A stretch of DNA of 64,000 nucleotides from Protonemura montana. Taxonomy: Eukaryota; Arthropoda; Insecta; Plecoptera; Nemouridae. A model generated the notes under the pieces. It did not search any database. It was not told the origin of the DNA and saw only the letters and a program-made list of their open reading frames with translations. Every line of letters begins with the position of its first letter. Position 1 is the stretch's first letter. Below, one piece after another: positions 8,501 to 61,700 of the stretch. Position numbers and translations under genes: made by a program. The stretch covers positions 16,977,701 through 17,041,700 of the forward strand of contig OX387607.1 in the NCBI GenBank assembly GCA_947568835.1. The letters are read 5' to 3'.

Positions 8501-9920
8501 GTAAGGATCCAGCGGTGATTAAGTAACGACCCCGTGCAGTGAAGCTCATTTTCCAAGAGAATCAAAACGATCCACGGAAATTCATTCGGTGAAGACGGCA
8601 AGCCGTTGATTATTTTCGGCAGTTGTTCTGTGTTGCTGCCTTCATAAAATGGTTGGATCAAACTTGTGTGCCAATAATAAGAACTTTTAATTTGAATTGC
8701 ATCGTGTGCTTCATTGTTTTCAGTCAGCCACCTGCTGTTTATTCTTTGTGATCTTGATGAATGAGTGAAATAATGTGCGTTGCGTCTGTTTCTGAAACCG
8801 CAAGCGTCTGAAACTGGAATATTGAAGCAACGGTGAGACAGGTCAGTTTATCAAACTATTAATTGCATGCTATTTTATCTTACATGACAATAGATCTTAT
8901 TCTTAAATCTTTATAAACATTTCTAGTGAACTGCCACGTGGTTGTTGCATGAACTTTATAGGTTAAAGGTGAGTAACTCTGTTAAATACATGCTTTAGAG
9001 CATCTACACTGCAGTATTATTAATTTATTTATAGTATCTGAACCTTACAGTGCATATCCCTGTATAGACTATGGGATGTGTAGTTTTATCATTGCAAAAT
9101 AAAGAATAGAATGAGAAATAATATACATGTGTTGTTGAAATGGATGTCAGCGAGATACATTTTATTTACTTTTGCCACTTAACAAAATAACTAATTGCAC
9201 CTTACCTTCCAGTTCCACAGATTCGCATTTAATTTGGGTTAAGCGGATATTCCATTTGGAACCCTGCTTTTGTAGTAAGACAAATATTTGAATCTTATCA
9301 TAGTCTTGAACTTTCAAAATTGCTGGAAAAAGAAAAGAAAGACTTTAAATTTGAAATTTGAACCAAACAATGCGCTATTGTACGCAGTAAATCATGATTT
9401 TAAAAATACTTGAGTATCCTTGTAAGTCTCCGCAGAATGGTGCGTTAAACGATTCACCGTTGCCGTGGCGTAGAATCATAATTATGTCTCGATAACAAAT
9501 CTTATTTATTGACGCAGCAGTTTGAGTGTCTAAAAAGTCGACCCTAATCACGAGAAAAATAAACAGGTTATTCTCTTAATTTACAAATTCAATCAGAATG
9601 CAACCAACGTACCGTAAGCCACAAGTTCCAGGCCCAACCTGCATTGTAAAAGAGCAGCTGATTGGCCCAATATCCACGGGAAGACTTTGAAACTCGTCCA
9701 AGTATTCGGTAGAAATTTGATTGCAGAATTCCTGCTTAACTTTTGCGTCGTCAAACGTGTGCCCAACAGTCTCGTACGTAACCTCTTGTTGCCAGTAATA
9801 TGTTGGGTTGCTGTACTCGGAGATTGTTGGGTTTGTTTCTATTTCTTGAAAACTGTACCTTACTACAGAAAGTACAGCAATAACTAATCTTGTCACCAAA
9901 CTTCTACACATAGCACACAT
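5559..9920 (-). CDS. Secreted CUB-domain trypsin-like serine protease
   Basis: Seven exons (9613-9920, 9410-9543, 9206-9322, 8480-8813, 7440-7657, 6514-6713, 5559-5765; phases 2,1,1,2,1,0) give about 505 residues. A signal peptide is followed by an N-terminal CUB-like region (roughly residues 60-180; motifs VGPGTCGLR, FCGDLQGYS, WNIRLTQIKC). Next come a linker with SDACG, the activation site LPK/IINGLPSSPNEFPW near residue 254, and the peptidase S1 domain. The triad is complete: TAAHC His about 294, FDIALL Asp about 345, GDSGGP Ser about 454. This CUB-plus-S1 layout matches insect CUB-serine proteases, which are extracellular or digestive enzymes. The S1 pocket is odd: the sequence before the catalytic Ser is FRGYQGDS, giving Arg at chymotrypsin position 189 and Tyr in place of Cys191. 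Introns carry fold-back elements. Start: ATG 9920, with a second ATG three codons later. Substrate unknown. Confidence 0.88.
6214..6474. mobile_element. Fold-back element family 2, full hairpin copy
   Basis: Palindromic element in the last intron of the serine protease, 40 bp downstream of exon 6 in gene orientation. Arms contain AACTGGGTTTTGAATGCTAA and its complement. The inner part carries the family core CCCAACGTTTCGTAACTTG and TACTTTATCAAGGGTAAGAG, also inverted. Confidence 0.75.
7241..7412. mobile_element. Fold-back element family 2, short hairpin copy
   Basis: A compact palindrome with arms of about 75 bp and almost no loop (AACTAAATTTCCCTATTC, then GAAATTTAGTTG). Its right edge lies about 27 bp from the splice donor of protease exon 5 (exon edge 7440). 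Confidence 0.75.
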
Positions 9921-10403
9921 TTCAACACCGAGAACAGGTACTTGAACGTTGAAGTGTTTATTGTCTTCCTCCTAGCCTCACTATGAATAAATTTTACTCA
10001 AACTGAATGAAGAGATATGCGTATTATTTACTTTCTCTTTTGATTTTTGATTTTTTCTTTAATGAATTAGAGAAAGTAAAATCATTTTCACCTATCAGAA
10101 GCGTACTGGAATCTTAACTTTACAATAGGGGCCTTATCTATTAATGAGCCTATTCTATCATAGCTTTTTTATCTTCTGAACTTGATTTGCATCCAAACAT
10201 CCAACGTTCGTTAGTATATGGATGCAGTTAAATGGGATTTACAGAATTAAGAAATGTCTGTTTTGAATCTGTGCTTTGTTTTGCCATCCAAATGTCCCTC
10301 GAAAATTCAAACGAGGACATCAATGTAGACCACGTGACGTCACGTGATGTCTTGAAGCCATCAGGTGCTACGCCCACCGAACAAGTCATATGATTGATCC
10401 AGG
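9921..10403. promoter_or_regulatory. Divergent promoter, serine protease and ATP6AP1
   Basis: A 483-bp gap separates two head-to-head start codons. Apart from the E-box palindrome listed separately, the sequence is AT-rich and unremarkable. No TATA box stands out. Co-regulation of the two genes is not implied by distance alone. Confidence 0.5.
10331..10346. promoter_or_regulatory. Double E-box / CRE palindrome upstream of ATP6AP1
   Basis: The sequence CACGTGACGTCACGTG is a perfect 16-bp palindrome: two CACGTG E-boxes overlapping a central TGACGTCA CRE. It ends 57 bp before the ATP6AP1 start codon. The second box in context (GTCACGTGAT) matches the CLEAR consensus GTCACGTGAC at 9 of 10 positions. 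CLEAR sites are bound by MITF/TFEB factors that control V-ATPase and lysosomal genes, so MITF-type control is a reasonable inference. Confidence 0.65.
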
Positions 10404-12767: not shown

Positions 12768-15700
12768 CTACCAAAGTTTCTCCTCCCAGCAAACAGGTAC
12801 CGCAAAATCATGCAAAACAAAGAACGCTATCGACTCTGCTGGCATAATCATCTCATCAGCAAACACGATACGTGGCCGAAACGACGGCAAAGACCCGTCA
12901 GCATTTAGAGACAATTCTTGCCCGTTTAAAAGAGTAATCTTAGATAGGAGACCGTTACCACCCGTCAAGATATAGGCAAGGACTGTCATGTGAGGATTAT
13001 ATCTGATTGCTCCGTTCATTCGCATGATTATAGCCGATGGTTTCTTGGTCATGTTGATCCCGAATACTGTGATGGTCCCACCCGAGCCTGTGAGTGAATC
13101 CGGTGCCGTGCAGTGGCAGTAGACACGAACGGGCCCGTGACATTCTGTAGTCTTGATTACCTTCGGTCCAACCAACTTCTTGTAAATCACCGACACCCAC
13201 CAATCCTAAAACATCGATTACAACTCACACTAAATGTTTTAATTTATCTTAAAGTGCACCAATTATTTACTCCAGTAAGTTGTGCTAATTCTCTCTTTTC
13301 TTTTGAACTACAAAAAATAACAAGAATTTTTTTAGATCTTCCAATCAAATCAAATGAATCTAAAAAAAGTGTCCGCTTTTTTACAGGCCAATTTATAAAA
13401 GCAACAGCGTGATCAACCATAATTTCTATTGCATTTCTTATTTATCGCAAGGTAAGATTGCCAAAAGGCTGTTAAAATAACTAAAGACAGATTTTCGATG
13501 CATTAACAGCTGATTGCGAGAGATGAAGATTTCCGTTGCAAAGTGCACCTGACTTTTTATTTTGTACTTGGCCACTCGAACCTTAATGTATTGCATTTCC
13601 CTATTTACATTTCTCCAATTCATATAAAATAGTCAAAATAAACCTGAGCGAGAGGCTATATTCTGGTAAATTTAAACAGCGTACAATGTTTTGGTCCTGA
13701 TTTTGCGGCAACAAAGCCTGGAATGAACTTACGGGCAAAGGGTCCATGTCTGCGTCGAGTAATGCGTAGTAACCGTTGAACAGGGACTGACGGATGACGA
13801 CGTCCAGACCCATTTGAGCCGATATTCCCAGCTTATCAAGCCACAAGAAACCATCGACAAAGCTGTCTGAGAGGTTAGGAGCTCCTCCTCCGTATGCAGA
13901 CGCAGTTTCAGCTTAACATAATTTTAACAATGTTGGGGTTATGTTGGTTTTTAGACTTATGTCTACTTGATGTAAACTTAGCACTAGTTTTAACAAAAAC
14001 TATTTCAACTGGGTTTTGAATGCTAAGTGAAAAACAACTTTACTTTTCTTTACTTTGCATTTGTTAATGCGCGGGGTATTTAATTTAATTTATTTATTTT
14101 AAATTAAATTAAGTTAGTAAGTTAGTTTTTTCTAACTAACATTCAGCTCTTTATTCATCTTATGAGATGTAAATGCCTAAAACAATATCTCAAACTCTAG
14201 TTTTACTCCCATATTAAATTTTATCTGTGATTTTTTACCTTTTTATGCTAATATCACTTGAGAATATGTCTCTAGTTCAATGCTTTACAACGTTCTGCAC
14301 ACACAATTAATTCAAGTCAATGTTAAAAAAAAAGCCAGCGCTTCTTTCAAAAAACACTTCCAACAAAATCACACTTCTCCCTTGATTTGCACTCTGAGAG
14401 TAAAAGAGTATTAAACATAGACTTGCTTTTGAAAATACAAACTTGAAGTTTGTGACTTGACTTACCGAGCCACATCGGTGAAGTTATATTCAACGAATCT
14501 ACGACGGCTTTCATTGCGTCAATCTGTTTACGTAGAATATTGAATACCGCGGGGTCAATGAACTCCGCCAAGCTCGTAGCCCGACCGTTCAAATAGTAAC
14601 TGCATCGAAAGAAAATCAATGCATCAGAGAAAATTAGGAATATAAAAACTGTAAGTAAATTTAAGACTAAATTATTTGATAAATTTAAAGAAGACAAAGA
14701 GAAAAATATAATGTAACATTGTAGTTTTTTTTAATAGCTTAACAAGCTAAATAAAATCCATACAAACAAAAGTATTAAAACATTTAAGTTCCGATAGCGA
14801 TGTACTTACTGGTGCCAGGTGACAGCGTCGACCGAATCCACGCTCTTCAAGAAATCGGTCAAATATTTTGTCGAAGAATCGACGGGAAACTTCTTCGGTC
14901 TCGTAACGTCGGGACCGACCACCAGGGAATCGTTGGCGTAGCGAGGATATTTTCCCAGGATTTTCTTCAACGCGTTGAAATCTTGTCCGAGTTGTGTGCC
15001 GTTGATCGTGACGTTGAACACGTGGTGAAATGAATTCGGCTCTGAAAATCAATCGGGAGAATTTAATAGGGACCCAGGAAAACATAAGGAGACTACAGTT
15101 TCACTAGGATTTCATCTGAGTTTTTAATATCAATAATTCTCAGCAAGATCCAAGTAATATAAATGTATCCTGAAGTATTTGATTGATTTGTTGTGTTTAA
15201 CTTAGCACTGTTTTGACATCTGTCCATGCGGCACTGGTCTAATGGCGTCAGTGAATGAGTGGATGATGATGAACTTAACCTAGCCTAGAAGGGAGGAGGG
15301 GAAACCCGGTGCTGGCACGTAGCCTACTCCTGTCGAAGACCAAGGGGACCACCGGCTTAACGTCCCTTCCGAAGGACAGTACAACGCAAACAACAGGATT
15401 CCTCCACAAATCCATGCTGTCGAGAGGTTGATAAGCAAGGCGAGTGAAGTTGCTGTACTAACTTTCATCCCTCCAACCTCTCTCCCAAACAAAACTGATC
15501 ATGTGTATGATGGTCACCCATCCAATACCTGACCCAGCGCAATGTTGCTTAACTTTCATCCCTCCAATCTCTCTCCCAAACAGAACTGGTCATGTGTATG
15601 ATGGTCACCCATCCAATACCTGACCCAGCGCAGTGTTGCTTAACTTTCATCCCTCCAACCTCTCTCCCGAACAGAACTGGTCATGTGTATGATGGTCACA

Positions 15701-16964
15701 CATCCAATACCTGACCCAGCGCAGTGTTGCTTAACTTTCATCCCTCCATCTCTCTCCCAAACAGAACTGGTCATGTGTATGATGGTCACACATCCAATAC
15801 CTGACCCAGCGCAGTGTTGCTTAACTTTCATCCCTCCATCTCTCTCCCAAACAGAACTGGTCATGTGTATGATGGTCACCCATCCAATACCTGAATCAGC
15901 GCATTGTTGCTTAACTTTCATCCCTCCAACCTCTCTCCCAAACAGAACTGGTCATGTGTATGATGGTCACCCATCCAATACCTGACTCAGCGCAGTGTTG
16001 CTTAACTTTCATCCCTCCAACCTCTCTCCTGAACAGAACTGGTCATGTGTATGATGGTCACCTATCCAATACCTGACCCAGCGCAGTGTTGCTTAACTTT
16101 GGTGATCTAACGAGAACCGGTGTTTCCAACATGCCAAACAGTTTGGTATAGAATTTGGTTATAGATGTATTGTGTTGGTTACAAATCTGTAATTTTTTTT
16201 CGGTCGACCGCACTTACCGTTCCCCAATTGCCAATTGACATCGAAACCACTGTCGTTGGAGAATTTGATAAGTTCCTCGGCGTTGGAGCTGTCCCAATTG
16301 TCACCATCGCGCAGCAGAACATTGAGATCGAACAGAATGTTCAGACCTGCGATCTTTGCAAATCTATAAATACTTGTCCAATCGTCTCCTGTTCAAAATA
16401 GATAAATTGAAATATATGTAAGTCACGTCTAGAGGTAAATCAAGGATCTAGTTTCAGTGAAAATATTTTAAAAAGTGACTCACCTGTCAGAGTAAAATTG
16501 TCGTAGTTTCTGGTAATGTCTGGAAAATTGAAAGTGTAGCTCATTGGGTCCTCGCCTGCGCCGGTGATCAAGTCTGCCAACGATTCAATAACTCTTTCTT
16601 CTAGAAATCTAGCTTCTTCAGCATAGTCGAGTGGATGTAACTTGTTTTTTGGTTGTGTTACTGATTTGGCACTAAAGAGCAGCCTGTCCGAATCTGTTCC
16701 CCCGATTCGAATATATGCCGGCGATAAATGTCTTGCGGCCAGGACAAGTTTATTTGCCGTGTATCCGTGCCACTTTGCTTTGATCAGAGATGTATCCAGA
16801 CCAATACTCAGAAACTTGTCTGATGTTGTTCGTAGTATTTTATCCGTTTCAAAGTTTATTTCGATCGTTGTCAGCTCCATAATCAGGCTCATCAGCGCTG
16901 CCAGGATGAATATCATAGCGAAACAGCCGGTGAACACGAACAATCTTTTCATCAGAATCCTCAT
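12768..16964 (-). CDS. HPSE: Heparanase (glycoside hydrolase family 79)
   Basis: Heparanase is an endo-beta-glucuronidase that cuts heparan sulfate chains in lysosomes and extracellular matrix. Six exons (16484-16964, 16218-16388, 14810-15041, 14466-14599, 13733-13911, 12768-13205; phases 1,1,2,1,0) give about 544 residues, close to human HPSE (543). An N-terminal hydrophobic signal or anchor is followed by [39 protein letters not shown], and NEPNS with the proton-donor Glu near residue 218, its codon split by the exon 2/3 junction. Then come [14 protein letters not shown] and [15 protein letters not shown] with the nucleophile Glu near 341. The C-terminal beta-sandwich starts at [13 protein letters not shown]. 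Both catalytic residues are present, so an active enzyme is expected. Start: ATG 16964, just after an acceptor at about 16971, so a 5' UTR exon is likely upstream. Intron 2 is largely a SINE array; intron 5 holds half of a fold-back element. Confidence 0.93.
13950..14115. mobile_element. Fold-back family 2 half-copy beside a family 1 fragment
   Basis: In the heparanase intron between 13911 and 14466. The left part (13950-14045) has TTTTTAGACTTATGTCTACT through TTTTGAATGCTAAGTGAAAA with no inverted partner. It runs into a truncated family 1 piece (AATGCGCGGGGTATTTAATT). This looks like a nested or deleted insertion. Confidence 0.6.
15066..16145 (-). mobile_element. 5S-derived SINE copy A with 7 x 91-bp tandem head
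   Basis: Minus-strand copy in heparanase intron 2. The 5' head (about 16094-16145) resembles the start of 5S rRNA (AACACCGGTTCTCGTTAGAT). Seven 91-bp units (about 15460-16094) follow, each with AAGTTAAGC and GTATTGGATGGGTGACC. The body continues at 15280-15460 with the single 36-bp segment, then the 3' tail near 15180-15200 (ACACAACAAATCAATC). A further stretch to 15066 is shared with the copy at 36733. Open frames inside are accidental. Confidence 0.85.
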
Positions 16965-18698: not shown

Positions 18699-20176
18699 AT
18701 TTACACAATACGCAGGTTAATACGCACAATACGCAGGTTAATACGCACAATACGCAGGTTAATACGCACAATACGCAGGTTAATACGCACAATACGCAGG
18801 TTAATACGCACTTTACGCAGGTTAATACGCACAATACGCAGGTTAATACGCACAATACGCAGGTTAATACGCACAATACGCAGGTTAATACGCACAATAT
18901 GCGGGTTAATACGCACAATACGCAGGTTAATACGCACAATACGCGGGTTAATACGCACAATACGCGGGTTAATACGCACAATACGCAGGTTAATACGCAC
19001 AATACGCAGGTTAATACGCACAATACGCAGGTTAATACGCACAATACGCAGGTTAATACGCACATTACCCAGGTTAATACGCACAATACGCAGGTTAATA
19101 CGCACAATACGCGGGTTAATACGCACAATACGCAGGTTAATACGCACAATACGCAGGTTAATACGCACAATACGCGGGTAAATACGCACAATACGCAGGT
19201 TAATACGCACAATACGCGGGTTAATACGCACAATACGCAGGTTAATACGCACAATACGCAGGTTAATACGCACAATACGCAGGTTAATACGCACAATACG
19301 CAGGTTAATACGCACAATACGCAGGTTAATACGCACAATACGCGGGTTAATACGCACAATACGCAGGTTAATACGCACAATACGCAGGTTAATACGCACA
19401 ATACGCGGGTTAATACGCACAATAAGCAGGTTAATACGCACAATACGCAGGTTAATACGCACAATATGCGGGTTAATACGCACAATACGCAGGTTAATAC
19501 GCACAATACGCGGGTTAATACGCACAATACGCAGGTTAATACGCACAATACGCAGGTTAATACGCACAATACGCAGGTTAATACGCACAATACGCAGGTT
19601 AATACGCACAATACACAGGTTAATACGCACAATACGCAGGTTAATACGCACAATACGCGGGTTAATACGCACAATAAGCAGGTTAATACGCACAATACGC
19701 AGGTTAATACGCACAATATGCGGGTTAATACGCACAATACGCGGGTTAATACGCACAATACGCAGGTTAATACGCACAATACGCGGGTTAATACGCACAA
19801 TATGCAGGTTAATACGCACAGTACGCAGGTTAATACGCACAATACGCAGGTTAATACGCACAATACGCAGGTTAATACGCACAATACGCGGGTTAATACG
19901 CACAATACGCAGGTTAATACGCACAATACGCAGGTTAATACGCACAATACGCAGGTTAATACGCACAATACGCAGGTTAATACGCACAATACGCAGGTTA
20001 ATACGCACAATACGCAGGTTAATACGCACAATACGCGGGTTAATACGCACAATACGCAGGTTAATACGCACAATACTCAGGTAAATACGCACAATACGCA
20101 GGTTAATACGCACAATACGCAGGTTAATACGCACAATACGCAGGTTAATACGCACAATACGTAGGTTAATACGCAC
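18699..20176. repeat. 21-bp minisatellite, about 70 copies
   Basis: The unit AATACGCACAATACGCAGG plus TT is itself a 9-bp and a 12-bp near-repeat of AATACGCA. The main variant is CAGG versus CGGG. Rare variants (AATAAGC, AATATGCGGG) recur together at 19421 and 19673, exactly 252 bp or 12 units apart, so blocks of the array have duplicated. The period is a multiple of three, so several frames stay open for the whole length; these are not genes. Confidence 0.97.
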
Positions 20177-20354
20177 AAAAGCGTACCTACCTCTGCGATG
20201 TCATAGGTTAGTCAATGTCATGAAGTTAGACAATCTGGAATCATTTGCTCGCCAGCATTTAATGCCGGAAAATATCTTCATTTTACAAACTTTTTAAAAC
20301 TCGCGCTGTGGAATAGCTAATACTTCCAAGCGATATCTAGACGTAATTAAGGTC

Positions 20355-21369: not shown

Positions 21370-22625
21370 ACTGAAAAACTTAATTGATTTGTGGTGTTTA
21401 ACGACGCACTGTTTTGACATCTGGTCATGCGGCACTGATCTAATGGCGTCGGTGAATGAGTGGATGATGATGAACTTAACCTAGTCTAGAAGGGTGGAGG
21501 GGAAACCCGGTGCCGGCACGTAGCCTATTCCTGTCGAAGAGCACCAAGGGGACCACCGGCTTAACGTCCCTTCTGAAGGACGGTACAATGCGAACAACAG
21601 GATTCCTCCACAAATCCATGCTTTCGAGAGGTTGATAAGCAAGGCGAGTGAAGTTGCTGTACTAACTTTCATCCCCTCCAACCTCTCTCCCGAACAGAAC
21701 TGGTCATGTGTATGATGGTTATCCATCCAATACCTGACCCAGCGCAGTGTTGCTTAACTTTCATCCCTCCAACCTCTCTCCCGAACAGAACTGGTCATGC
21801 GTATGATGGTCACCCATACAATACCTGACCCAGCGCAGTGTTTCTTAACTTTCATCCCTCCAACCTCTCTCCCGAACAGAACTGGTCATGTGTATGATGG
21901 TCACCCATCCAATACCTGACCCAGCGCAGTGTTGCTTAACTTTCATCCCTCCAACCTCTCTCCCAAACAGAACTTGTCATGTGTATGATGGTCACCCATC
22001 CAATACCTGACCCAGCGATGTGTTGCTTAACTTTCATCCCTCCAACCTCTCTCCCGAACAGAACTGGTCATGTGTATGATGGTCACCCATCCAATACCTG
22101 ACCCAGCGCAGTGTTTCTTAACTTTCATCCCTCCAACCTCTCTCCCGAACAGAACTGGTAATGTGTATGATGGTCACCCATCCAATACCTGACCCAGCGC
22201 AGTGTTGCTTAACTTTCATCCCTCCAACCTCTCTCCCGAACAGAACTGGTCATGTGTATGATGGTCACCCATCCAATACCTGACCCAGCGCAGTGTTGCT
22301 TAACTTTCATCCCTCCAACCTCTCTCCCAAACAGAACTGGTCATGTGTATGATGGTCACCCATCCAATACCTGACCCAGCGCAGTGTTGCTTAACTTTCA
22401 TCCCTCCAACCTCTCTCCCGAACAGAACTGGTCATGTGTATGATGGTCACCCATCCAATACCTGACCCAGCGCAGTGTTGCTTAACTTTCATCCCTCCAA
22501 CCTCTCTCCCAAACAGAACTGGTCATGTATGATGGTCACCAATCCAATACCTGACCCAGCGCAGTGTTGCTTAACTTCAGTGATCTACGGAAAGCGATGT
22601 TTCCAACACGCCAAGCCATTCGGTT
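21370..22625 (-). mobile_element. 5S-derived SINE copy B with 10 x 91-bp tandem head
   Basis: The longest array of the family. The body (21480-21665) and tail resemble copies A and C. Ten 91-bp units run from about 21665 to 22575. The 5S-like head (AACATCGCTTTCCGTAGATC) ends near 22625. One unit has GATGTG for GCAGTG and the head-proximal unit lacks a few bases, but most units are nearly identical, indicating recent expansion or homogenisation. Its 3' flank differs from that of copies A and C. Confidence 0.85.
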
Positions 22626-30890: not shown

Positions 30891-30964
30891 CATCACCCAC
30901 ATAAAAGAGCACAAAATAATAAAAAATGTCTCGACGCTTTCCACAGATTCAACGTATCCTCATC

Positions 30965-31960
30965 CCAACACTTTCAAAATGTCAACCCTTTGCTCGGAGT
31001 AGCAACTTAAACCCACCGTATCATCATCCCAGCACTTTCAAAATGTCAACCCTTTGCTCGGAGTAGCAACTTAAACCCACCGTATCATCATCCCAGCACT
31101 TTCAAAATGTCAACCCTTTGCTCGGAGTAGCAACTTAAACCCACCGTATCATCATCCCAACCCTTTCAATATGTCAACCCTTTGCTCGGAGTAGCAACTT
31201 AAACCAACCGTATCATCATCCCAACCCTTTCAAAATGTCAACCCTTTGCTCGGAGTAGCAACTTAAACCCACCGTATCATCATCCCAGCACTTTCAAAAT
31301 GTCAACCCTTTGCTCGGAGTAGCAACTTAAACCCACCGTATCATCATCCCAACCCTTTCAAAATGTCAACCCTTTGCTCGGAGTAGCAACTTAAACCCAC
31401 CGTATCATCATCCCAGCACTTTCAAAATGTCAACCCTTTGCTCGGAGTAGCAACTTAAACCCACCGTATCATCATCCCAGCCCTTTCAAAATGTCAACCC
31501 TTTGCTCGGAGTAGCAACTTAAACCCACCGTATCATCATCCCAGCACTTTCAAAATGTCAACCCTTTGCTCGGAGTAGCAACTTAAACCCACCGTATCAT
31601 CATCCCAACCCTTTCAAAATGTCAACCCTTTGCTCGGAGTAGCAACTTAAACCAACCGTATCATCATCCCAACCCTTTCAAAATGTCAACCCTTTGTTCG
31701 GAGTAGCAACTTAAACCCACCGTATCATCATCCCAGCCCTTTCAAAATGTCAACCCTTTGCTCGGAGTAGCAACTTAAACCCACCGTATCATCATCCCAA
31801 CCCTTTCAAAATGTCAACCCTTTGCTCGGAGTAGCAACTTAAACCCACCGTATCATCATCCCAACCCTTTCAAAATGTCAACCCTTTGTTCGGAGTAGCA
31901 ACTTAAACCCACCGTATCATCATCCCAGCCCTTTCAAAATGTCAACCCTTTGCTCGGAGT
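30965..31960. repeat. 64-bp satellite array, about 15-16 copies
   Basis: Unit core TTTGCTCGGAGTAGCAAC, then CCACCGTATCATCATCCC. Units are nearly identical, differing mainly at AGCACTTTC, AACCCTTTC or AGCCCTTTC. The array begins 75 bp beyond the right inverted-repeat arm; the left arm has no matching array. The regular spacing is that of a satellite, with no unique spacers. Confidence 0.95.
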
Positions 31961-34554: not shown

Positions 34555-35450
34555 TGGATAAAAGGATTACATGGTTTTATCGAGCTGCTTATCAACCTCG
34601 CGACACCAACTTCACTCGTCTTGCTTAGCAACCTCTCGACAGCAACTTCACTCGTCTTGCTTATCAACCTCTCGACAGCAACTTCACTCGCCTTGCTTAT
34701 CAACCTCTCGACAGCAACTTCACTCGCCTTGCTTATCAACCTCTCGACAGCAACTTCACTCGCCTTGCTTATCAAACTCTCGACAGCAACTTCACTCGCC
34801 TTGCTTATCAACCTCTCGACACCAACTTCACTCGCCTTGCTTATCAACCTCTCGACATTAACTTCACTCGCCTTACTTATCAACCTCTAGACAGCAACTT
34901 CACTCGCCTTACTTATCAACCTCTAGACAGCAACTTCACTCGCCTTGCTTATCAACCTCTCGACAGCAACTTCACTCGGCTGGCTTATCAACCTCTCGAT
35001 AGCAACTTCACTCGCCTTGCTTATCAACCTCTCGACAGCAACTTCACTCGCCTTGCTTATCAACCTCTCGACAGCAACTTCACTCGGCTGGCTTATCAAC
35101 CTCTCGATAGCAACTTCACTCGGCTGGCTTATCAACCTCTCGATAGCAACTTCACTCGTCTTGCTTATCAACCTCTCGACAGCAACTGCACTCGCCTTGC
35201 TTATCAACCTCTCGACAGCAACTTCACTCGCCTTGCTTATCAACCTCTCGAAACCAACTTCACTCGCCTTGCTTATCAACCTCTCGACAGCATGGATTTG
35301 TGGAGGAATCCTGTTGTTCGCGTTGTACCGTCCTTCGGAAGAGACGTTAAGCCGGTGGTACCCAAGCTTATTGCCGCCATATTTGGGCCAAGTTGGGATA
35401 ATTATCATCTTCATAATCACCTCAATTAAACACAACAAATCAACCAATCA
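34555..35450 (+). mobile_element. SINE copy E with 36-bp segment expanded about 20-fold
   Basis: About 20 tandem units of 36 bp (core CTTGCTTATCAACCTCTCGA) lead into the SINE body (GCATGGATTTGTGGAGGAAT through GTTGTACCGTCCTTC) and the tail (ACACAACAAATCAACC). The 36-bp unit occurs once in SINE copies A to D, between body and head. Here it is multiplied and the 5S-like head is absent. Long open frames in the array are accidental. Confidence 0.85.
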
Positions 35451-36645: not shown

Positions 36646-36732
36646 GAATTGAATCTAGACTCGGGAAATATGTGATATAATTCTAGTGCCAAGTGAAGAG
36701 GTTAACTTCTTGGCTCTGTGCATTTTGTCAAT

Positions 36733-37720
36733 AGGGACTCAGGAAAACATAAGGAGACTACAGTTTCACTAGGATTTCATCTGAGTTTTTAATATTAATA
36801 ATTCTCAGCAAGATCCAAGTAATATAAATGTATCCTGAAGTATTTGATTGATTTGTTGTGTTTAACTTAGCACTGTTTTGACATCTGTCCATGCGGCACT
36901 GGTCTAATGGCGTCAGTGAATGAGTGGATGATGATGAACCTAACCTAGCCTAGAAGGGAGGAGGGGAAACCCGGTGCCGGCACGTAGCCTACTCCTGTCG
37001 AAGACCAAGGGTACCCCAGGCTTAACGTCCCTTCCGAAGGACGGTACAACGCGAACAACAGGATTCCTTCACAAATCCATGCTGTCGAGAGGTTGATAAG
37101 CAAGGCGAGTGAAGTTGCTGTACTAACTTTCATCCCTCCAACCTCTCTCCCTAACAGAACTGGCCATGTGTATGATGGTCACCCACCCAATACCTGACCC
37201 AGTGCAGTGTTGCTTAACTTTCATCCCTCTAACCTCTCTCCCGAACAGAACTGGTCATGTGTATGATGGTCATCCATCCAATACCCGATCCAGCGCAGTG
37301 TTGCCTAACTTTCATCCCTGCAACCTCTCTCCCGAACATAACTGGTCTTGTGTATGATGGTCACCCATCCAATACCTGACCCAGCGCAGTGTTGCTTAAC
37401 TTTCATCCCTCCAACCTCTCTCCCAAACAGAACTGGTCATGTGTATGATAGTCACCCATCCAATACCTGACCCAGCGCAGTGTTGCTTAACTTTTATCCC
37501 TCCAACCTCTCTCCCGAACAGAACTGGTCATGTGTATGATGGTCACCCATCCAATACCTGATTCAGCGCAGTGTTGCTTAACTTTCATCCCTCCAACCTC
37601 TCTCCCGAACAGAACTGGTCATGTGTATGATGGTCACCCATCCAATACCTGACCCAGCGCAGTGTTGCTTAACTTCGGTGATCTAACGAGAACCGGTGTT
37701 ACCAACACGGCAAACCGTTC
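36733..37720 (-). mobile_element. 5S-derived SINE copy C with 6 x 91-bp tandem head
   Basis: Same structure as copy A: the 3' flank shared with copy A (36733-36845), tail, body (36950-37125), six 91-bp units (37125-37672) and the 5S-like head to about 37720 (ACACCGGTTCTCGTTAGATC). Confidence 0.85.
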
Positions 37721-40079
37721 TTCTGAAGTATTTCTAACTCATATATTATGTATTATTATTATTGCACTTTCAATATTTATTGGCATGTATTCTATTTACG
37801 TGGTTTTTCTTCAATTTGTGCTTGAATAGCATGATAAGCATATTTAAAAAAAAAAATTTTACTTTAGTAATTTTACACTCGACGACCAGCCGATATTTTA
37901 ACTTTTTTTTATATAAAATACCATCTCATTAGAAGTGTTCTGCTAAATTTAACCATCGAAAAGTCTAAAACAAATTGGGTTGTCTCATTTCAGAACTTTA
38001 AATTTACTATCAAATCATCCAGGCAATCGTATCATATTTCTTCGGTGAAATCAGCAGATAAAATCCATAACTGAAGCTAGAAACTTATAATTCCGTAGCT
38101 TTATTAAGTTTCCGGTAGAAATTCGATCAAGTTTACACAGATTTCCACTTACCATTATTTCCATCAAACAAATCGTCTTCCTATCTCACTTCCACCCACT
38201 TTCCCATACATTTACCATCCCCTCGACCACGAAAACACATTTCCCCAGCTCACAGATCATTAAATCCCCTTCCCCCCACACACAGACACCGCAAAATAGC
38301 GGCCAAGATAGAATTTTGCCCTCCTGCCCAAGCCCTTCACTGCCCCAAAACCGCCCTATCTTCACCCAACGCTAACATACACCATCATCGATATAATATA
38401 TAACAACCATTTCCAAGCCACAGCTGTTGGAAAACTTGTGACATGTCACTATTTACAACGACCCATGATGGTCTAGGGTTTTGTCCTCATATGCATATGA
38501 GGTTGACTTTTATCAAAAGAGAAATCTTGTTATGTGGTGAAAGAGCCCGCCTATTTTTGGCCCCTTGAGCCTCAAGCGCGTGCTACCCATGCCCCCAACC
38601 CTTATCGAGGCGACCAATCACAGAGCTAGGTTTATAATAAATTATATTTTATATTATTGTTGTGTTGGCACCTTATTTCTGGTCCCCAATCTATGACATA
38701 AGGGAGGGTTCACAGTTTCGGTTCAGGATATTAATACGTTTTATGCTTGACTGTTCAACTGTAAGCATCACGTAGCTATTTTTTCTTCTAGGTATTACTT
38801 TGATCGTTATACCCTCGGTATGGTGGGATATTTGTTTCCTTTGTTCGTTTTAGCGTAGGTTAAATCATTTCAGAAGCTAATAGATGGAATGGAACGTCAA
38901 GGAACGAGTGCTTTTAGTTCTAATTGCGTTATCTAATTGTATCTCATGTAGTATAGGGGCAAAATAATTAACACAAGGCTAAGGTGAACAAGAGAAGAAA
39001 GAAAATTGAGTTTTCTGTGCTTTTCTGAGCTTTTCCCTGAGTAAAGACCGAAATTTTGTCATGTATACGAAGATTCCACGAAATTAAAGCGATTTTTTTT
39101 TTAATCTTTCAAGCAATCAGCAGGACTTGAATTAAAAAGCAAGATATTCATCAACCACGATATTATTCTCTAGCAGAAAATTCTGAAGCATAATTCGAAT
39201 ACCTCAAAATGACGAATGAAACCAGCGAATCTCTTTAACTTTCCTAACTTTGTTCATCTGAAAGTTTCAAGACCACTTTATTCCGCAGCTACGAGATAGC
39301 AATGAATTACTTGGCTTAACTCTGACTTATCGACCCACGATGCAATAAACCCGGCATATCATGAACTTCACTTCCATGAACTTCACTAAAGTTTTGCTAT
39401 AGATCTAAACTTTCGCCGATGTCCAGTCAATGACTTAATCTTAGCACACTTTTAGAATCAACTTTTACACGAGAAGCGACGAAATCTTCAAAGATTCGCC
39501 GCGAACAGAACGTAGTAGCAACGAGATACGGGTTCAAGTCTTTTCTTTGCAAGCGACATTTAAAAGGATCATTTCAAGTTGAATGGTTAACCACAATTGG
39601 TAGCAATTTCTCGAGTTTCATTCAAGAGTTAACAAAGCTTGGACCGCATGGGGTTGGGGTTTGGGCGATGGTAAGGGTGCTCGCCTAGAACCACTTGAAT
39701 GTTTGCACCCGATGCTACCATCGTACCTTTAGTCGAATTGCTAATGATTTAATGCGAGTGATTGTAAAGTCAAGTTATAAGGGACATGTGCTCAGAGAAT
39801 AGCCTGGGTTATTCAGAGTTTTTTGGCATTTTTTTTTAAATATGAGCCCTGAATCTACAGTCGTAAGGAGTTTATTTCAATTTATTGAAAAAAAAAACAA
39901 TTCTGACTTTTTTTTTCAAACACGGCTTGTGATTTTAATTAGACTTTAAGTTCAATTACACCAGCAAATTAATCACATGTGTACTTTAACTATGACGCTG
40001 TAATGTTTAGAGTTTGTAACTTTTCTACCCAAGACGTTACGTTGTTCTTTCATCTTGTGTTCTTACAAGTTTTCACGTT
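37721..40079. other. Intergenic, no gene seen
   Basis: AT-rich. The only structure noted is an 18-bp perfect palindrome at 38485-38502 (CCTCATATGCATATGAGG). No coding frame with protein-like composition. Confidence 0.45.
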
Positions 40080-40692
40080 CCCAGTCATAACGCCATAACC
40101 CAGTCATAACGCCATATCCCTGTCATAACGCCATAACCCAGTCATAACGCCATATCACAGTCATAACGCCATAACCCAGTCATAACGCCATAACCCAGTC
40201 ATAACGCCATAACCCAGTCATAACGCCATATCACAGTCATAACGCCATAACCCAGTCATAACGCCATAACCCAGTCATAACGCCATAACCCAGTCATAAC
40301 GCCATAACCCAGTCATAACGCCATAACCCAGTCATAACGCCATAACCCAGTCATAACGCCATAACCCAGTCATAACGCCATAACCCAGTCATAACGCCAT
40401 AACCCAGTCAAAACGCCATAACCCAGTCATAACGCCATAACCCAGTCATAACGCCATATCACAGTCATAACGCCATAACCCAGTCATAACGCCATATCAC
40501 AGTCATAACGCCATAACCCAGTCAAAACGCCATAACCCAGTCATAACGCCATAACCCAGTCATAACGCCATAACCCTGTCATAACGCCATATCACAGTCA
40601 TAACGCCATAACCCAGTCATAACGCCATACGCCAGTCATAACGCCATATCCCTGTCATAACGCCATAACCCAGTCATAACGCCATATCCCAG
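40080..40692. repeat. 19-bp minisatellite, about 32 copies
   Basis: Unit CATAACGCCATAACCCAGT. Variants ending in TATCACAGT and TATCCCTGT are interspersed, partly in a repeated order. Confidence 0.95.
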
Positions 40693-51266: not shown

Positions 51267-54200
51267 ATGCATGCACCTGTCGTCATGACTCTCATTCCAC
51301 CAACTCTTGAGCAACTAAAGGTAATGAATCTTGAATTGTATCAAGATTCGGAAATCACAAAGAGAGATGTGATCTTGTTGAAAGAATGGCTGGAAAAACA
51401 ACCTCATTTGCCGAAAAACCTGGGTAAGACTGCTTTTTGATAACTGCTTAACTACATTCAATTTGCTGTCAGTAAATCATGAAAAAATCTGTTCTTCTGC
51501 TTTCATAAATTACATTTTAGTTTGAATTTCATTTGAAAATCTGTGCAAACTTTATAATAATTTATGCGCTGCTGGTGTTTTTGGTTTTAGATGATATCCG
51601 TCTTGAACGATTTATCTACGGTTGCAAGTTTAGTTTGGAAAGAACTAAGAAAATGCTCGACACGTATTACACAATTCGTGCAAATGTCCCCGAGTTCTTC
51701 ACAAATCGCGATGCTCTCCTTCCAGAATTACAAGAAAGTTTCAAGAATGTGTAAGTAACTGAACTTTACCTGGATTTAGGGAAAGAGAAAAACAGAGAAA
51801 ATACACATTTTTGGGCAAAGATAACCAAATTACTATCGAAGATAATTTTTTGGGGGAAAAATATTGAATTTGTCCCAAATCTGAGAGATAAAACTGGATC
51901 TTTCAGTTGCTAACACGAAGAATAAAGTAAAGGTCTTGTGCACAGGTGGATTTTAGTTGCATAACGGTAAGAAAATAGTAGGCTTTAACTTGAATCAAGT
52001 TTTAGACAGGTACACACAATAACACAGCTGTACCCTTGAAAAGCTGCCAACCAGTCTCCAATATACAGCCGATAAGAATTTCAGTTTCCATGGACAGGTA
52101 TACAAACCAAGATATGTCCATGATTTTTATAGCTACTTGCCGTGCACATGTGCATCTGAATTAGTATCGCTTCCTGCATCTCAATGCTATGATTTAGTCC
52201 CGTGCCATTACCATTCTTAAATTACCAATGACACTTGGCATTTGTTCAAAACAACTTTATTTTTATTTATTTATTTTCACGTTTTTAGTGCTTGTTTGTG
52301 TTTGCGTAATCATACTAAGATTTAATTGATCGCTAATAATGTATTTAATTGTGTTGGAAACACCGGTCCTCATGAGATCACCGAAGTTAAGCAACACTGC
52401 GCTGGGTCAGGTATTGGATGGGTGACCATCATGCATATGACCAGTTCTGTTTGGGAGAGAGGTTGGAGGGATGAAAGTTGAGCAACACTGCGCTGGGTCA
52501 GGTATTGGATGGGTGACCATCATACACATGACCAGTTCTGTTTGGGAGAGAGGTTGGATGGATGAAAGTTAAGCAACACTGCGCTGGGTCAGGTATTGGA
52601 TGGGTGACCATCATACACATGACCAGTTCTGTTCGGGAGAGAGGTTGGAAGGATACAAGTTAAGCAACACTGCGCTGGGTCAGGTATAGGATGGGTGACC
52701 ATCATACACATGACCAGTTCTGTTCGGGAGAGAGGTTGGAAGGATGAAAGTTAAGCAACACTGCGCTGAGTCAGGTATTGAATGGGTGACCATCATACAC
52801 ATGACCAGTTCTGTTCGGGAGAGAGGTTGGAAGGATGAAAGTTAAGCAACACTGCGCTGGGTCAGGTATTGGATGGGTGACCATCATACACATGACCAGT
52901 TCTGTTCGGGAGAGAGGTTGGAGGGATGAAAGTTAAGCAACACTGCGCTGAGTCAGGTATTGGATGGGTGACCATCATACACATGACCAGTTCTGTTCGG
53001 GAGAGAGGTTGGAGGGATGAAAGTTAGTACAGCCACTTCACTCGCCTTGTTTATCAACCTCTCGACAGCATGGATTTGTGGAGGAATCCTGTTGTTCGCG
53101 TTGTACCGTCCTTTTATCCTCGGCTAAGAAGATGCCGGCACCGGGTTTTCCCTGCTCCCTTATAGGATAGTTAATTTAAATGATTATCATCATCATAACG
53201 CACCCATGTTCACCAAACCAATGCCACAAGGTTTGTTTTCATCAATACTTTGGTTGTCATGGTGAATACCATAGTTTAAATGGGTAATTGAAAGTTGAGT
53301 AATTTACGAGTAATTTATGAGTAGTAATTTATGAGAGCAATTTAGAATTATGAGTAATTTAGATATTTAGAATAATTATGAGTTTTATGTTGAAATGTTT
53401 GAACAGGAAGATAAAAACTAAAAAAACTAAAATCATTGAAATCGTTTCATAATTTTACCTTAAAGCTGCCAACTCGAAACGACCCATTTAACTTTAAATT
53501 CTACAAAAACTGGAAATGTATATCCAATAAGTGTAGCGATCCTCCCTCGAAAGTAAACGTGTTATGATTGTGGAAATCCACCCTCCTTAGCAAAAGAGCC
53601 TCGTCTTATGTAATCATGTCTTTCAAATTTCTCAAGATTAATTTGAAAACCTTCATCTTTGTCCCCAGGAGCTACTTTATTCTGCCAGACCTCTCCAAGG
53701 AAGGCTATCGAGTGACAATCTTGAAACTAAATACCACAGACATTGACAAGTTCGACTTACAATCACTTGTTAAAAGAATTGTAATGTGCCTCGATGCTAG
53801 ATTACTTCAAGAAAAATGTCTTAACAACATAATGGTAATAGACTTATGGGGCTACTCGATGGCACATTACGCACAATGTATGCCCACTTTAGCCATTGTG
53901 CGTAACGCAATGCTCTCAATTCAAGACGCATTCCCATTGCGTCTTACCAGAGTACATTTCTTGAATGTACCGGTTTTTATCGACAAGGTTATCAACCTTT
54001 TTACGCCACTTCTCAAAGAAAAGCTGTTCCATAAGGTAAAGAAAAATTTTTGTGTTGAATTTTTTTTAAATTAGTTTATTTCTTGAAAGAATCACTTTAA
54101 TTGAAAATGGTTATTTCAGTTCGTTTTTCACACTGGCGGAGGCGAGTGTCTGCAAAAATACGTCTCCAAAGCAATTTTGCCTCTGGAATACGGCGGAGAT

Positions 54201-55006: not shown

Positions 55007-55616
55007 TCGAGCACGTGAAAGTTGCACTGGGGCAGAATCACATGCCCAGTCGAACACGTGAAAGTTGCACTGGGAAGGAGTCACATGCTCAGTCGAACAC
55101 GTGAAAGTTGTACTGGGACAGAGTCACATGCCCAGTCGAACACGTGAAAGTTGCACTGGGACAGAGTCACATGCCCAGTCGAACACGTGAAAGTTGCACT
55201 GGGACAGAGTCACATGCCCAGTCGAACACGTGAAAGTTGCACTGGGGCAGAGTCACATGCCCAGTCGAACACGTGAAAGTTGCACTGGGACAGAGTCATA
55301 TGCCCAGTCGAACACGTGAAAGTTGCACTGGGGCAGAGTCACATGCCCAGTCGAGCACGTGAAAGTTGCACTGGGACAGAGTCATATGCCCAGTCGAACA
55401 CGTGAAAGTTGCACTGGGACAGAGTCATATGCCCAGTCGAACACGTGAAAGTTGCACTGGGGCAGAGTCACATGCCCAGTCGAACACGTGAAAGTTGCAC
55501 TGGGACAGAGTCATATGCCCAGTCGAACACGTGAAAGTTGCACTGGGGCAGAGTCACATGCCCAGTCGAGCACGTGAAAGTTGCACTGGGACAGAGTCAC
55601 ATGCCCAGTCGAACAC
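55007..55616. repeat. 43-bp satellite with E-box in every unit, 14 copies
   Basis: The unit has ACACGTGAAAGTTGCACTGG, then GACAGAGTCACATGCCCAGT, and repeats about 14 times. Each unit carries one CACGTG. The array ends about 45 bp beyond the AATAAA (minus strand, 55661-55666) of CFAP58, so it lies between two convergent genes. Confidence 0.95.
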
Positions 55617-55660
55617 GCAGATCGCCCCCAGTGCGTAAATAAGTATAAAGACTCGTGAAT

Positions 55661-58700: not shown

Positions 58701-61700
58701 GGGTATACGAGGGTATACGCCGTATACCCAAAAAAAAATTTGACACCGAGCATATACCCAAAAAATATGTACAGGGTATACGCCCAATAAATACTCTTTG
58801 CAAAACTTTAAAACGCGTTTTGCAACGACAATTCTTAATCTCCCTACAACCTGCACTATAAAAACTCGAAAAGCAAAGTTTATTCTGAAAACTGAAAAGT
58901 GGGGCAGTCCGTGTATAGTAGCGGTTCGTATGATCTGGATGGGTATGCAATGGTTTTTCCAAGCAGTCAACGTACTCATTCAACCCACCCGAGGAAAGCG
59001 CGATTGCAGCTACCCCAACACCAAGTATTAGTTTTAGTGTTGATAGGAATTAACTATCTATGAACTATAACTAGTGAATAGACTTAAGGTAAAGAATTAG
59101 AAACATCCCGACCAAGTACCTAACCTAGAGATGACCACGACATTTGAAACTCACAGCCTGATAACCCAGCGTATACCCAAAAAAATGTAGGACTACACCA
59201 CTGACTACATGTGTGAATGGTCGACAATTTACTTTGAAAAAACTTTATGAAATTCTGGACAAAATGCTCAGAATAATGAATAATGTTTTAAGTTTCGTTG
59301 TGGTTTTCTTACCTGTTCCATATCTTTCTTCTGCCTTTCCTTATCTTCATCGGCCAACTTAATTAGTCGCTGCAGACTATCTTCTTCTGCTTGCATTGCT
59401 GCAATCGTTCGTCTGCATTCCTTTACCAACTGGTTCGTCTTCTGAAGTTCCACCTTCAACATCTCCTTATCTTTGTCTGCCTTTTGCAGCGCTGGAAAAA
59501 AATAATTCGGTCAAAACCACAGACTTAAGAAGAACTTTTTCAACTGGGTTTTGAATGCTAAGTGAATGGCTACTAAATTTCCCGACGTTTCGCAACATAT
59601 ACTAGTTACTTCTTCAGGGGTTGCTCAAACCTATCTACCAATCTACCAAAATACTCCCTGCACATATCGTAATTTGAACGTTACAACGTCTTACCAAATT
59701 TTGTATTATTAACAACACTTTAACCGTCTAAAAAATTGATGCCCAAACGCGGGCTCGAACCCCGATCTCCACCTGTCGCGGGTGTTGCTCTAACCAATTG
59801 AGCTACTTGGACCCCGATCTCCACCTGTCACGGGTGTTGCTCTAACCAATTGAGCTACTTGGACCCCGATCTCCACCTGTCGCGGGTGTTGCTCTAACCA
59901 ATTGAGCTACTTGGACCCCGATCTTCACCTGTCGCGGGTGTTGCTCTAACCAATAGAGCTACTTGGACCGCGATCTCCACCTGTCGCGGGTGTTGCTCTA
60001 ACCAATTGAGCTACTTGGACCCCGATCTTCACCTGTCGCGGGTGTTGCTTTAACCAATTGAGCTACTCGGACCCCGATCTCATCTGTCGCGGGTGTTGCT
60101 CTAACCAATTGAGCTACTTGGACCCCGATCTCCACCTGTCACGGGTGTTGCTCTAAACAATTGAGCTACTTGGACACTGGCTTTTTGAGATGATTTTAGT
60201 GTATTTGATGAGAATGACGGATCTCCAAGGAGTAGAACCAAGAGGCTGTGAATACTCACAGTCACTCTGATTCTAGTGACGCTATATCACGTCACAACCT
60301 GTCAAACTCCAGTAACGCTTGCAATGTGCGGGGTATTTTATTATTAACAACACTATAAACGTCTCAAAAATTGATTCCCAAAAATTAAATGCCCGCGCAT
60401 TGCAAGCGTTTGCAATTTAAATAAGATTTCATCCTAAGTCTTACCAAATTCTTCTTTAATGAGCTGCGTCTCTTTGGTCGTGATATCTTCTTTCAGTTGT
60501 TCCACTTGATGGTTCATCACTTTGATCTTCTGTTTCAAGTCTGAAATCTGATCCTGAGCTTCTAGCAGACTCTTGCTGAAGTTATTACGATCTGCACGGA
60601 CTTGCTCGAACAGGTTTTGTTGCATCCTATACTTGGTCTCGCACTCTGACAGACTTTTCTTGTATTCAAAGATCGACTGTTGTTTTAGCTTCACTTCTTC
60701 TACTGTGTCTTTGATTTGTTGTGTCAGGTCGATTGCTTCTTTGATGTATCTGTGAAGCAAGCGTTAAGAACAAAATAATCAGACAGAGAAATCTGGGTTT
60801 TCCATACACATAATTGGTTAGTTAGTAAAAAAACGCCAATTTGTTCGGGATTTTATTTCAGAAAATACAAAATACGTTAGTTTTTAAGTTATTGACCCTG
60901 ATTATTTTATTTAGATGCATTTAGGAAGATTGAACTTGGTAATTGTTATAATTTTATATGTTTTTTTTTGTTTTTGGAAAATTGTCAGGACTGCTCTTAC
61001 CCTTGATAAAGTAACAGGTACAAGTTACGAAACGTTGGGAAATTCAGTTGTTCTTCACTTAGCATTCAAACCCCAGTTGAAATAGTTTTTGTTAAATCTT
61101 GGTTTCTTTTTAAAGAAGTCAGAAAAGGAAATACGTACCGGTCACGATCTTTCTCTAAGCCTGACATTATTTGACGTTGCTTCTGAACTTGTTCACTGAA
61201 CGTATCGAGTTCTGACTCAAGTTTCTTCTTCAACAGTTCCTGCATCTTAATGCTCCTCGTGTGTTCTTCTAACTTAACTGCAGCAAAATACAGAGACAAT
61301 GTTGTGAACACATCATTTATTATTATCATTTTTTTTTTTTTTTGTTAGATTGGCTGTTATGATTAGTTGTTGTACAATTTTATTTTCATATTTTTGCTCT
61401 ACTGATGAGCCCAATGGGCTTTGTGGAAAACTATGTGAAGAAATTATGTATTTTTTTGTTGTTAACCAAATAAACATGTTTAATCAATCAATCAAAAAAA
61501 GAAAAAAAAAAGACAATTTGCTGTCAAATATTCTGCTCTAAAAATATTTGCCAGGCACGAAAACTTACGCTGTACTTTGGCGTTGTTTTTTGTGAGAACT
61601 TCTCTTTCTCTGTTCATTCCTTCTATCGTTCTAACGTCAGCCTCCTTTTGTCTTCTGTAGCCGTCAATCTCTGTTTTCATCTGCGATCGCATTGCTTTTT

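Follow-up and report, generated by a model that had tools for sequence, protein, structure and literature searches.

The window (the whole stretch of DNA analysed, 64 kb at C5:16977701-17041700 of a 258 Mb genome in 34 contigs) contains four tandem arrays of a 91-bp unit (Table 1). Genes that include one for a CRAL-TRIO protein and one for a V-ATPase accessory subunit point to an animal genome. TRF, run on the 64-kb window, placed these arrays at 15459-16100, 21663-22577, 37124-37675 and 52384-53026, with 93-96% matches, and unit parsing gave 7, 10, 6 and 7 units, respectively (W15k, W21k, W37k and the 52-kb copy, L001), confirming the positions and copy numbers of the initial annotation. The Rfam 5S_rRNA model (RF00001) matched the head and first unit above its gathering score in 4/4 window copies, with scores of 41.5-54.6 bits and E-values of 3.4e-5 to 1.2e-8. 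The 5S-like head described initially is thus significant in every window copy, which disposes of the concern that it would give no 5S alignment. All four arrays are flanked by this head and by a common body start, AAAGTTAGTACAGC, supporting the proposal of a SINE derived from 5S rRNA whose promoter region is internally repeated. The further claim that head and body are the same at all four arrays holds for their presence; however, in the 52-kb copy the head is missing its first ~15 nt, and the 3' part is rearranged.

Table 1. Features of the SINE copies and further tandem arrays in the window.
Feature	Position	Strand	Basis
5S-like head of 52-kb copy, without first ~15 nt	52351..52383	+	Rfam RF00001 43.7 bits, head alignment
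7 tandem 91-bp units, 52-kb copy	52384..53020	+	TRF, unit parsing
SINE body and rearranged 3' part, 52-kb copy	53021..53199	+	sequence, alignment
5S-like head, 37-kb copy	37675..37722	-	Rfam 54.6 bits
6 tandem 91-bp units, 37-kb copy	37129..37674	-	TRF, unit parsing
SINE body and 3' end, 37-kb copy	36844..37128	-	alignment
5S-like head, 21-kb copy	22577..22624	-	Rfam 41.5 bits
10 tandem 91-bp units, 21-kb copy	21669..22576	-	TRF, unit parsing
SINE body and 3' end, 21-kb copy	21380..21668	-	alignment
5S-like head, 15-kb copy	16102..16147	-	Rfam 52.6 bits
7 tandem 91-bp units, 15-kb copy	15465..16101	-	TRF, unit parsing
SINE body and 3' end, 15-kb copy	15179..15464	-	alignment
Further tandem array, 21 bp	18704-20178		TRF
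Further tandem array, 64 bp	30953-31960		TRF
Further tandem array, 19 bp	40080-40692		TRF
Further tandem array, 43 bp	55007-55617		TRF

Each unit consists of an A box (AAGTTAAGC), an IE region, a C-box core (GGATGGGTGACC) at unit nt 33-44 and a 47-nt spacer; we assign these box names from the 5S alignment of the 52-kb copy and from the usual layout of 5S promoters. Between the common 5' end (ACCGAACGG) and the A box, the leader was counted in the sequence as 48 nt, similar to the spacing in 5S genes. The unit opens with the word AAGTTA, which belongs to the 5S A box, and a second AAGTTA opens the body. Most aligned loci have common 5' and 3' ends, and in many copies the 3' end is GTGCGTCGTTAAACACCACAAATC with a short A/T-rich tail. 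Within the window, a repeat resembling a target-site duplication (TSD) of 12 bp with 1 mismatch surrounds the 37-kb copy, and one of 15 bp with 2 mismatches the 21-kb copy; comparison of the flanks of the 15-kb copy revealed no convincing TSD. The 15-kb (15065-15460) and 37-kb (36730-37125) copies have their body and ~110 bp of 3' flank in common, at 97.5% over 396 bp, and differ in their 5' flanks. This shared 3' side points to duplication or exchange, the breakpoint lying inside the element.

Two other arrays in the window were noted. At 34586..35292 (+), a further copy of this SINE body, without the 5S head, contains, from TRF and the sequence, a different segment, 36 bp of the body, about 20 times between ACAGCA words; this array then continues into the normal body and 3' end. 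On the minus strand, at 59740-60175, a tRNA-Ser-like sequence has a 52-bp stretch with an A-box-like part about 8 times, and a B-box-like part once at its end. This is a second, putative array of promoter parts, of different origin.

We counted the junctions of the element across the genome, allowing up to 2 mismatches. There are 9,105 unit-body junctions, 10,092 head-unit junctions (a figure that takes in the repeated heads of a 92-bp array type described below) and 26,121 unit-unit junctions; reversed control patterns gave 0 matches for each junction type, including the 92-bp joint, and the comparison of 26,121 with 0 rules out a chance origin of the arrays. That all joints share one register was rejected as an argument, since the register is set by the pattern used in the search. 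The family is interspersed and of high copy number, with about 9,000-10,000 detectable copies that hold from one to about twenty units each.

The number of units per copy was scored at 100 exact unit-body sites among the matches listed, which span 0.43-29.42 Mb of contig C1. In this sample, 61/100 copies have one unit (k=1), 21/100 have k>=2, and 18/100 have no unit; multi-unit copies among these matches hold from 2 to at least 16 units. Unit-unit joints number 2.9 per body junction in the genome and 0.8 in the C1 sample (among the matches listed), so one-unit copies are perhaps over-represented in the sample, which consists of well-kept junctions on one chromosome and under-represents arrays. 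A complementary count starts from 100 exact unit-unit joints among the matches listed on C1. These form 30 arrays, and 26 of them lead into the SINE body: for 9 an exact body junction is among the matches listed, and of the 18 opened later 17 reach the body. The remaining arrays among these matches are L132, with the body start only, and L131, L135 and L144, without a body. Since 26/30 arrays enter the body, the 91-bp arrays lie mostly inside SINEs, and the possibility left by the initial annotation that they are mostly satellites without the SINE body is ruled out among the matches listed on C1. In L131, L132, L135 and L144 the body has been lost or replaced (by other sequence or an ATTT repeat); a few arrays outlive their body.

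We next consider how multi-unit copies came to lie where they are. TSD-like repeats were found at 23/43 elements with an intact tail, compared with 29/1,806 mispaired flanks. By unit number, the frequencies were 7/11 for k=1, 2/4 for k=2-4 and 14/28 for k>=5; long arrays were enriched in this analysis, as in those of units, subtype and unit nt 22, by the choice of a 7-unit query. TSDs alone could be older than the expansion of an array. Two headless arrays begin within a unit: L032 starts at nt 53 and has 7 further whole units, with an exact 14-bp TSD at the cut, and L029 starts at nt 76 and has 8 further whole units, with an exact 11-bp TSD at the cut. Because one cut unit alone leaves no whole unit to amplify, the RNAs that gave rise to L029 and L032 held at least one partial and one whole unit. 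At these two sites the inserted RNA therefore carried more than one unit; the evidence sets a minimum only, with one partial unit and one or more whole units preceding the body. Among the remaining headless arrays, the repeat at the cut of L046 is imperfect, and no TSD was found at the cut of L016 (which lies at a unit border) or L020. L025, which has a short tail and falls outside the TSD scoring, has no repeat at its cut, and L130, the seventh headless array, is without a 3' flank.

Changes of unit number in DNA can be followed at one duplicated locus. L006, L023 and L024 lie in duplicated stretches near the ends of C4, C12 and C5, with 8, 10 and 10 units, respectively. Both flanks of L006 are ~98% alike with those of L023 and L024, indicating that the three are one insertion in segmental duplicates. 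Beyond units 1-2, L006 has almost no variants in common with L023 and L024. One insertion thus has 8 or 10 units, mostly without common variants, indicating that the arrays turn over in DNA, and this duplicated locus shows that unit number changes after insertion. Comparisons of units within and between loci, from which L048 (the same locus as L012) and L006 and L024 (the same insertion as L023) were left out, gave the following. The nearest neighbour of a unit lies in its own locus for 89/350 units, compared with 7 expected; 17/70 locus-private variants occur in more than one unit; and adjacent units are more alike than non-adjacent ones in 26/44 loci (Wilcoxon p 0.0025). Position-matched units in different loci are not more alike than others (0.055 vs 0.052). 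As to the repeated independent expansion suggested in the initial annotation, change of unit number after insertion is real, as between L006 and L023/L024, but is probably not the sole route, given that L029 and L032 were inserted with more than one unit.

Three positions in the body separate multi-unit from one-unit copies, and we refer to the two states as M-type and S-type. Among the C1 matches listed with k>=1, 18/33 M-type copies have k>=2, compared with 2/48 S-type copies, with the M sites first chosen on the same data. When the sites were re-chosen on random halves, the remaining halves still showed the link (median p 0.001; <0.05 in 96% of 200 splits). In 17 arrays that were opened later and not used for defining the sites, 14/17 are M-type, compared with 15/61 one-unit copies (p 2.4e-5). 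Flanks are common within L072/L076/L107/L111, L080/L087 and L093/L126, so these rows are not independent; without three flank-sharing rows the subtype test gave p 5e-7. L151/L153 and L155/L157 look alike and are possible duplicates. On a body tree, for which rows L075, L047, L056, L116 and L035 were named for removal, the unit-number label changes 19 times, compared with 36.5 times for shuffled labels (0/500 shuffles as low). The tree is weak, with 2/107 inner branches starred, and a single clade of all multi-unit copies was not found on it.

Median body divergence is 0.027 for multi-unit copies (n=51) and 0.054 for one-unit copies (n=61), with 31/51 of the multi-unit bodies coming from a similarity-ranked search or the window, outside the C1 sample; the subtype and divergence analysis took in 99/100 C1 sites. 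Judged by body divergence, the M-type, carried by most multi-unit copies, is apparently the younger body subtype. The units themselves vary at nt 22, where a G/A variant is mixed within 41/50 multi-unit loci, and one-unit copies comprise 42 with A and 15 with G. In-place growth from one unit is hard to reconcile with the mixture of this variant within 41/50 loci. L035, which was badly parsed, was left out of the nt-22, conservation and body-tree analyses and counted as k>=2 in the subtype, location and C1 counts.

Among the matches listed on C1, 18/21 multi-unit copies lie in the outer 15% of the contig, compared with 13/61 one-unit copies; this location analysis took in 82/100 C1 sites. The outer 15% of contigs also contains 34/39 long-array places, which were picked by similarity to the 7-unit query, and 53/64 loci of the 92-bp type (C1-C5, exact joints). 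The distal skew is milder for the 30 C1 arrays among the matches listed, with 17 below 2.3 Mb, 2 at 2.3-19 Mb and 11 at 19-27.5 Mb. Within the M-type C1 copies (among the matches listed), k>=2 was found for 13/15 copies below 2.4 Mb, compared with 5/18 elsewhere, and this effect of place within one subtype fits expansion in place. Expansion, persistence or insertion bias could each be the cause of the distal skew.

A second tandem type has a 92-bp unit that runs from +1 of the head to the C box (+1 to +92), with a blunt joint to the next +1; there are 2,000 such joints in the genome. We opened eight of these loci (L133-L140), and 2/8 reach a full body and 3' end: L134 has six 92-bp units, then five 91-bp units, the body and 3' end, and L139 has five 92-bp units followed by a one-unit SINE with body and 3' end. 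In L138, the 92-bp array is followed by a body remnant without a unit. The SINE body is absent at 5/8 opened loci, and the 92-bp arrays may mostly be satellites without a body. No clear TSD was seen when the flanks of L134 and L139 were read by eye. A boxes are spaced at 91-92 bp in both array types. Among truncated copies without a unit start, 6/9 independent ones begin at +87 to +96 (L093 and L126 were counted once, and 8 further copies have internal deletions instead); the binomial p for this cluster is 0.001 after allowing for the choice of interval, which was picked post hoc. None of 6 headless arrays starts at +87 to +96. An RNA cut or pause near +92 would explain both the 92-bp unit spacing and the starts of the truncated copies. 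The 92-bp type, the uneven chromosomal distribution and the prevalence of one-unit copies in the C1 sample all lay beyond the reach of the initial annotation.

We consider it likely that this is a 5S-headed SINE with a one-promoter older form and a promoter array in a younger lineage, whose multi-unit copies result from retroposition of multi-unit RNAs together with change in DNA. A single promoter would have been present in the older, commonest form. The 91-bp unit may have arisen in a younger source lineage through one slip that duplicated the promoter segment between two AAGTTA words, as the sequence suggests. RNAs with more than one unit would then have been reverse transcribed and inserted as such, as at L029 and L032, and unit number would have changed further in DNA after insertion, as at the duplicated locus, and perhaps also in source loci or during reverse transcription. 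The joint of +92 to +1 would have produced arrays of leader and promoter, some of them upstream of a complete SINE, and we see its likeliest cause in a reverse transcriptase that jumped end to end between templates. Like the monomers of mouse L1, tandem promoters may increase initiation, in this case by Pol III, and TFIIIA/TFIIIC could in principle bind each unit, as the initial annotation proposes. The retroposition of already multimeric transcripts, offered as an alternative in the initial annotation, is favoured by the exact TSDs of L029 and L032, the link to body subtype and the mixed nt-22 variant.

These same three observations weigh against expansion in place only, in which one-unit SINEs insert and slippage or unequal exchange then multiplies the AAGTTA-bounded segment locus by locus, more so in some chromosome regions: a TSD at a cut within a unit requires an RNA that held more than one unit, and neither the subtype linkage nor the mixture at nt 22 in 41/50 loci favours it. 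Amplification in place is what the available text of a study of SINE-derived satellites proposes (PMC10702118), and it would fit the distal excess of multi-unit C1 copies (18/21 vs 13/61 one-unit copies in the outer 15%, among the matches listed), the single insertion with 8 or 10 units, the within-locus excess of nearest neighbours and the likeness of adjacent units in 26/44 loci, as well as the amplification of a different segment between short repeats in another body copy. We regard expansion in place only as unlikely. We also consider it quite unlikely that gene conversion or ectopic recombination, with units exchanged between loci, carried the array and M-type body into older one-unit insertions. 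Such homogenisation across loci would fit the mostly different unit variants within the one insertion of L006, L023 and L024, the uneven chromosomal distribution, and the common 3' flanks and different 5' flanks of the 15-kb and 37-kb copies; however, it is disfavoured by the exact TSDs at truncated arrays and the lower divergence of multi-unit bodies, and body sites as far as ~85 bp beyond the array would have to be converted as well.

Compatible with the likely reading, of multi-unit retroposition plus change in DNA, is selection for tandem promoters, in which several 5S-type regions raise a weak type 1 promoter and multi-unit sources outcompete others. The younger subtype is the multi-unit one, and in mouse L1, too, monomer number is reported to fall with age (PMC9022269) and the activity of monomers to add up (PMC6454616); a retroposed 5S promoter has been proposed, in the part of the HaSE3 report available, to be weak for want of upstream signals (PMC3272025). 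Against selection, conservation of the promoter half of the unit does not exceed that of the spacer, whether in first, second, middle or last units (L015 was left out of this test). We hold selection to be possible, with some doubt. By analogy with mouse L1 monomers and with the proposed weakness of retroposed 5S promoters, we infer that the array may strengthen transcription. A more extended proposal, which we consider rather unlikely, is that the type 1 promoter has become a variable inherited array under selection, in which each upstream unit would give the next its missing upstream context, and that an RNA cut or pause near +92 and template jumps onto a 92-nt 5S-like RNA would build the 92-bp type.

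Earlier work has described SINEs with a 5S head, tandem repeats derived from SINEs, and SINEs that are mobile in dimeric form (PMC8010984, PMC3272025, PMC10702118). The 5S rRNA-derived SINEs (SINE3; HaSE3 of Helicoverpa, PMC3272025; PxSE4/PxSE5 of Plutella, PMC8010984) likewise have a 5S-like head with A box, IE and C box, a body of their own and TSDs. In contrast to the several promoter regions here, the available descriptions of HaSE3 and PxSE4/PxSE5 give one, and the word 'tandem' occurs 0 times in the main texts of PMC3272025 and PMC8010984. No SINE with tandem 5S promoters was found in openly licensed PMC literature. We regard this SINE family, with its multiplied putative Pol III promoter and with multi-unit copies that were retroposed, as a variant of the 5S-derived SINEs that is new relative to that literature.

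The closest known case appears to be that of squamate SINE-derived satellites, with mouse L1 monomers close by analogy. The squamate satellites (PMC10702118, in the text available) are likewise partial-SINE tandems with the SINE end kept, a subtelomeric preference and variable unit number, and are discussed as products of recombination in DNA; by contrast, most arrays here keep head and body, the unit holds a putative Pol III promoter, and two were inserted with more than one unit. Also described there are dimeric SINEs that amplify in this form, Dip elements arranged full length in tandems of up to eight, and internal duplications of ~30 nt within SINEs. In the available parts of two reports, the 5' UTR monomers of mouse L1 (PMC9022269, PMC6454616) are likewise a tandem internal promoter of variable number, with more monomers in younger subfamilies and truncation within the array; L1 is, however, an autonomous LINE with a Pol II promoter, whereas the element here is a SINE with a 5S-type, putatively Pol III promoter. 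SVA/LAVA VNTR composites, as far as the available text goes (PMC4432496), are also non-autonomous, with a variable internal array that changed in DNA, there through microhomology, and the array change after insertion here resembles that report; they are unrelated elements, and their VNTR is not a 5S-type promoter. In plants, Cassandra forms tandem arrays of a retroelement with a 5S promoter, but is an LTR element in which, in the accessible account, whole LTRs and the internal domain are repeated (PMC7215508). Mouse L1, with its Pol II promoter, is a known case of variable tandem promoters; here they are found in a small, putatively Pol III element with thousands of copies, which ties interspersed SINEs to tandem repeats. 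The family makes it possible to test whether repetition rescues a weak type 1 promoter, and how the promoter arrays of retrotransposons arise and change length, a question called unclear for mouse L1 in the available text of PMC6454616.
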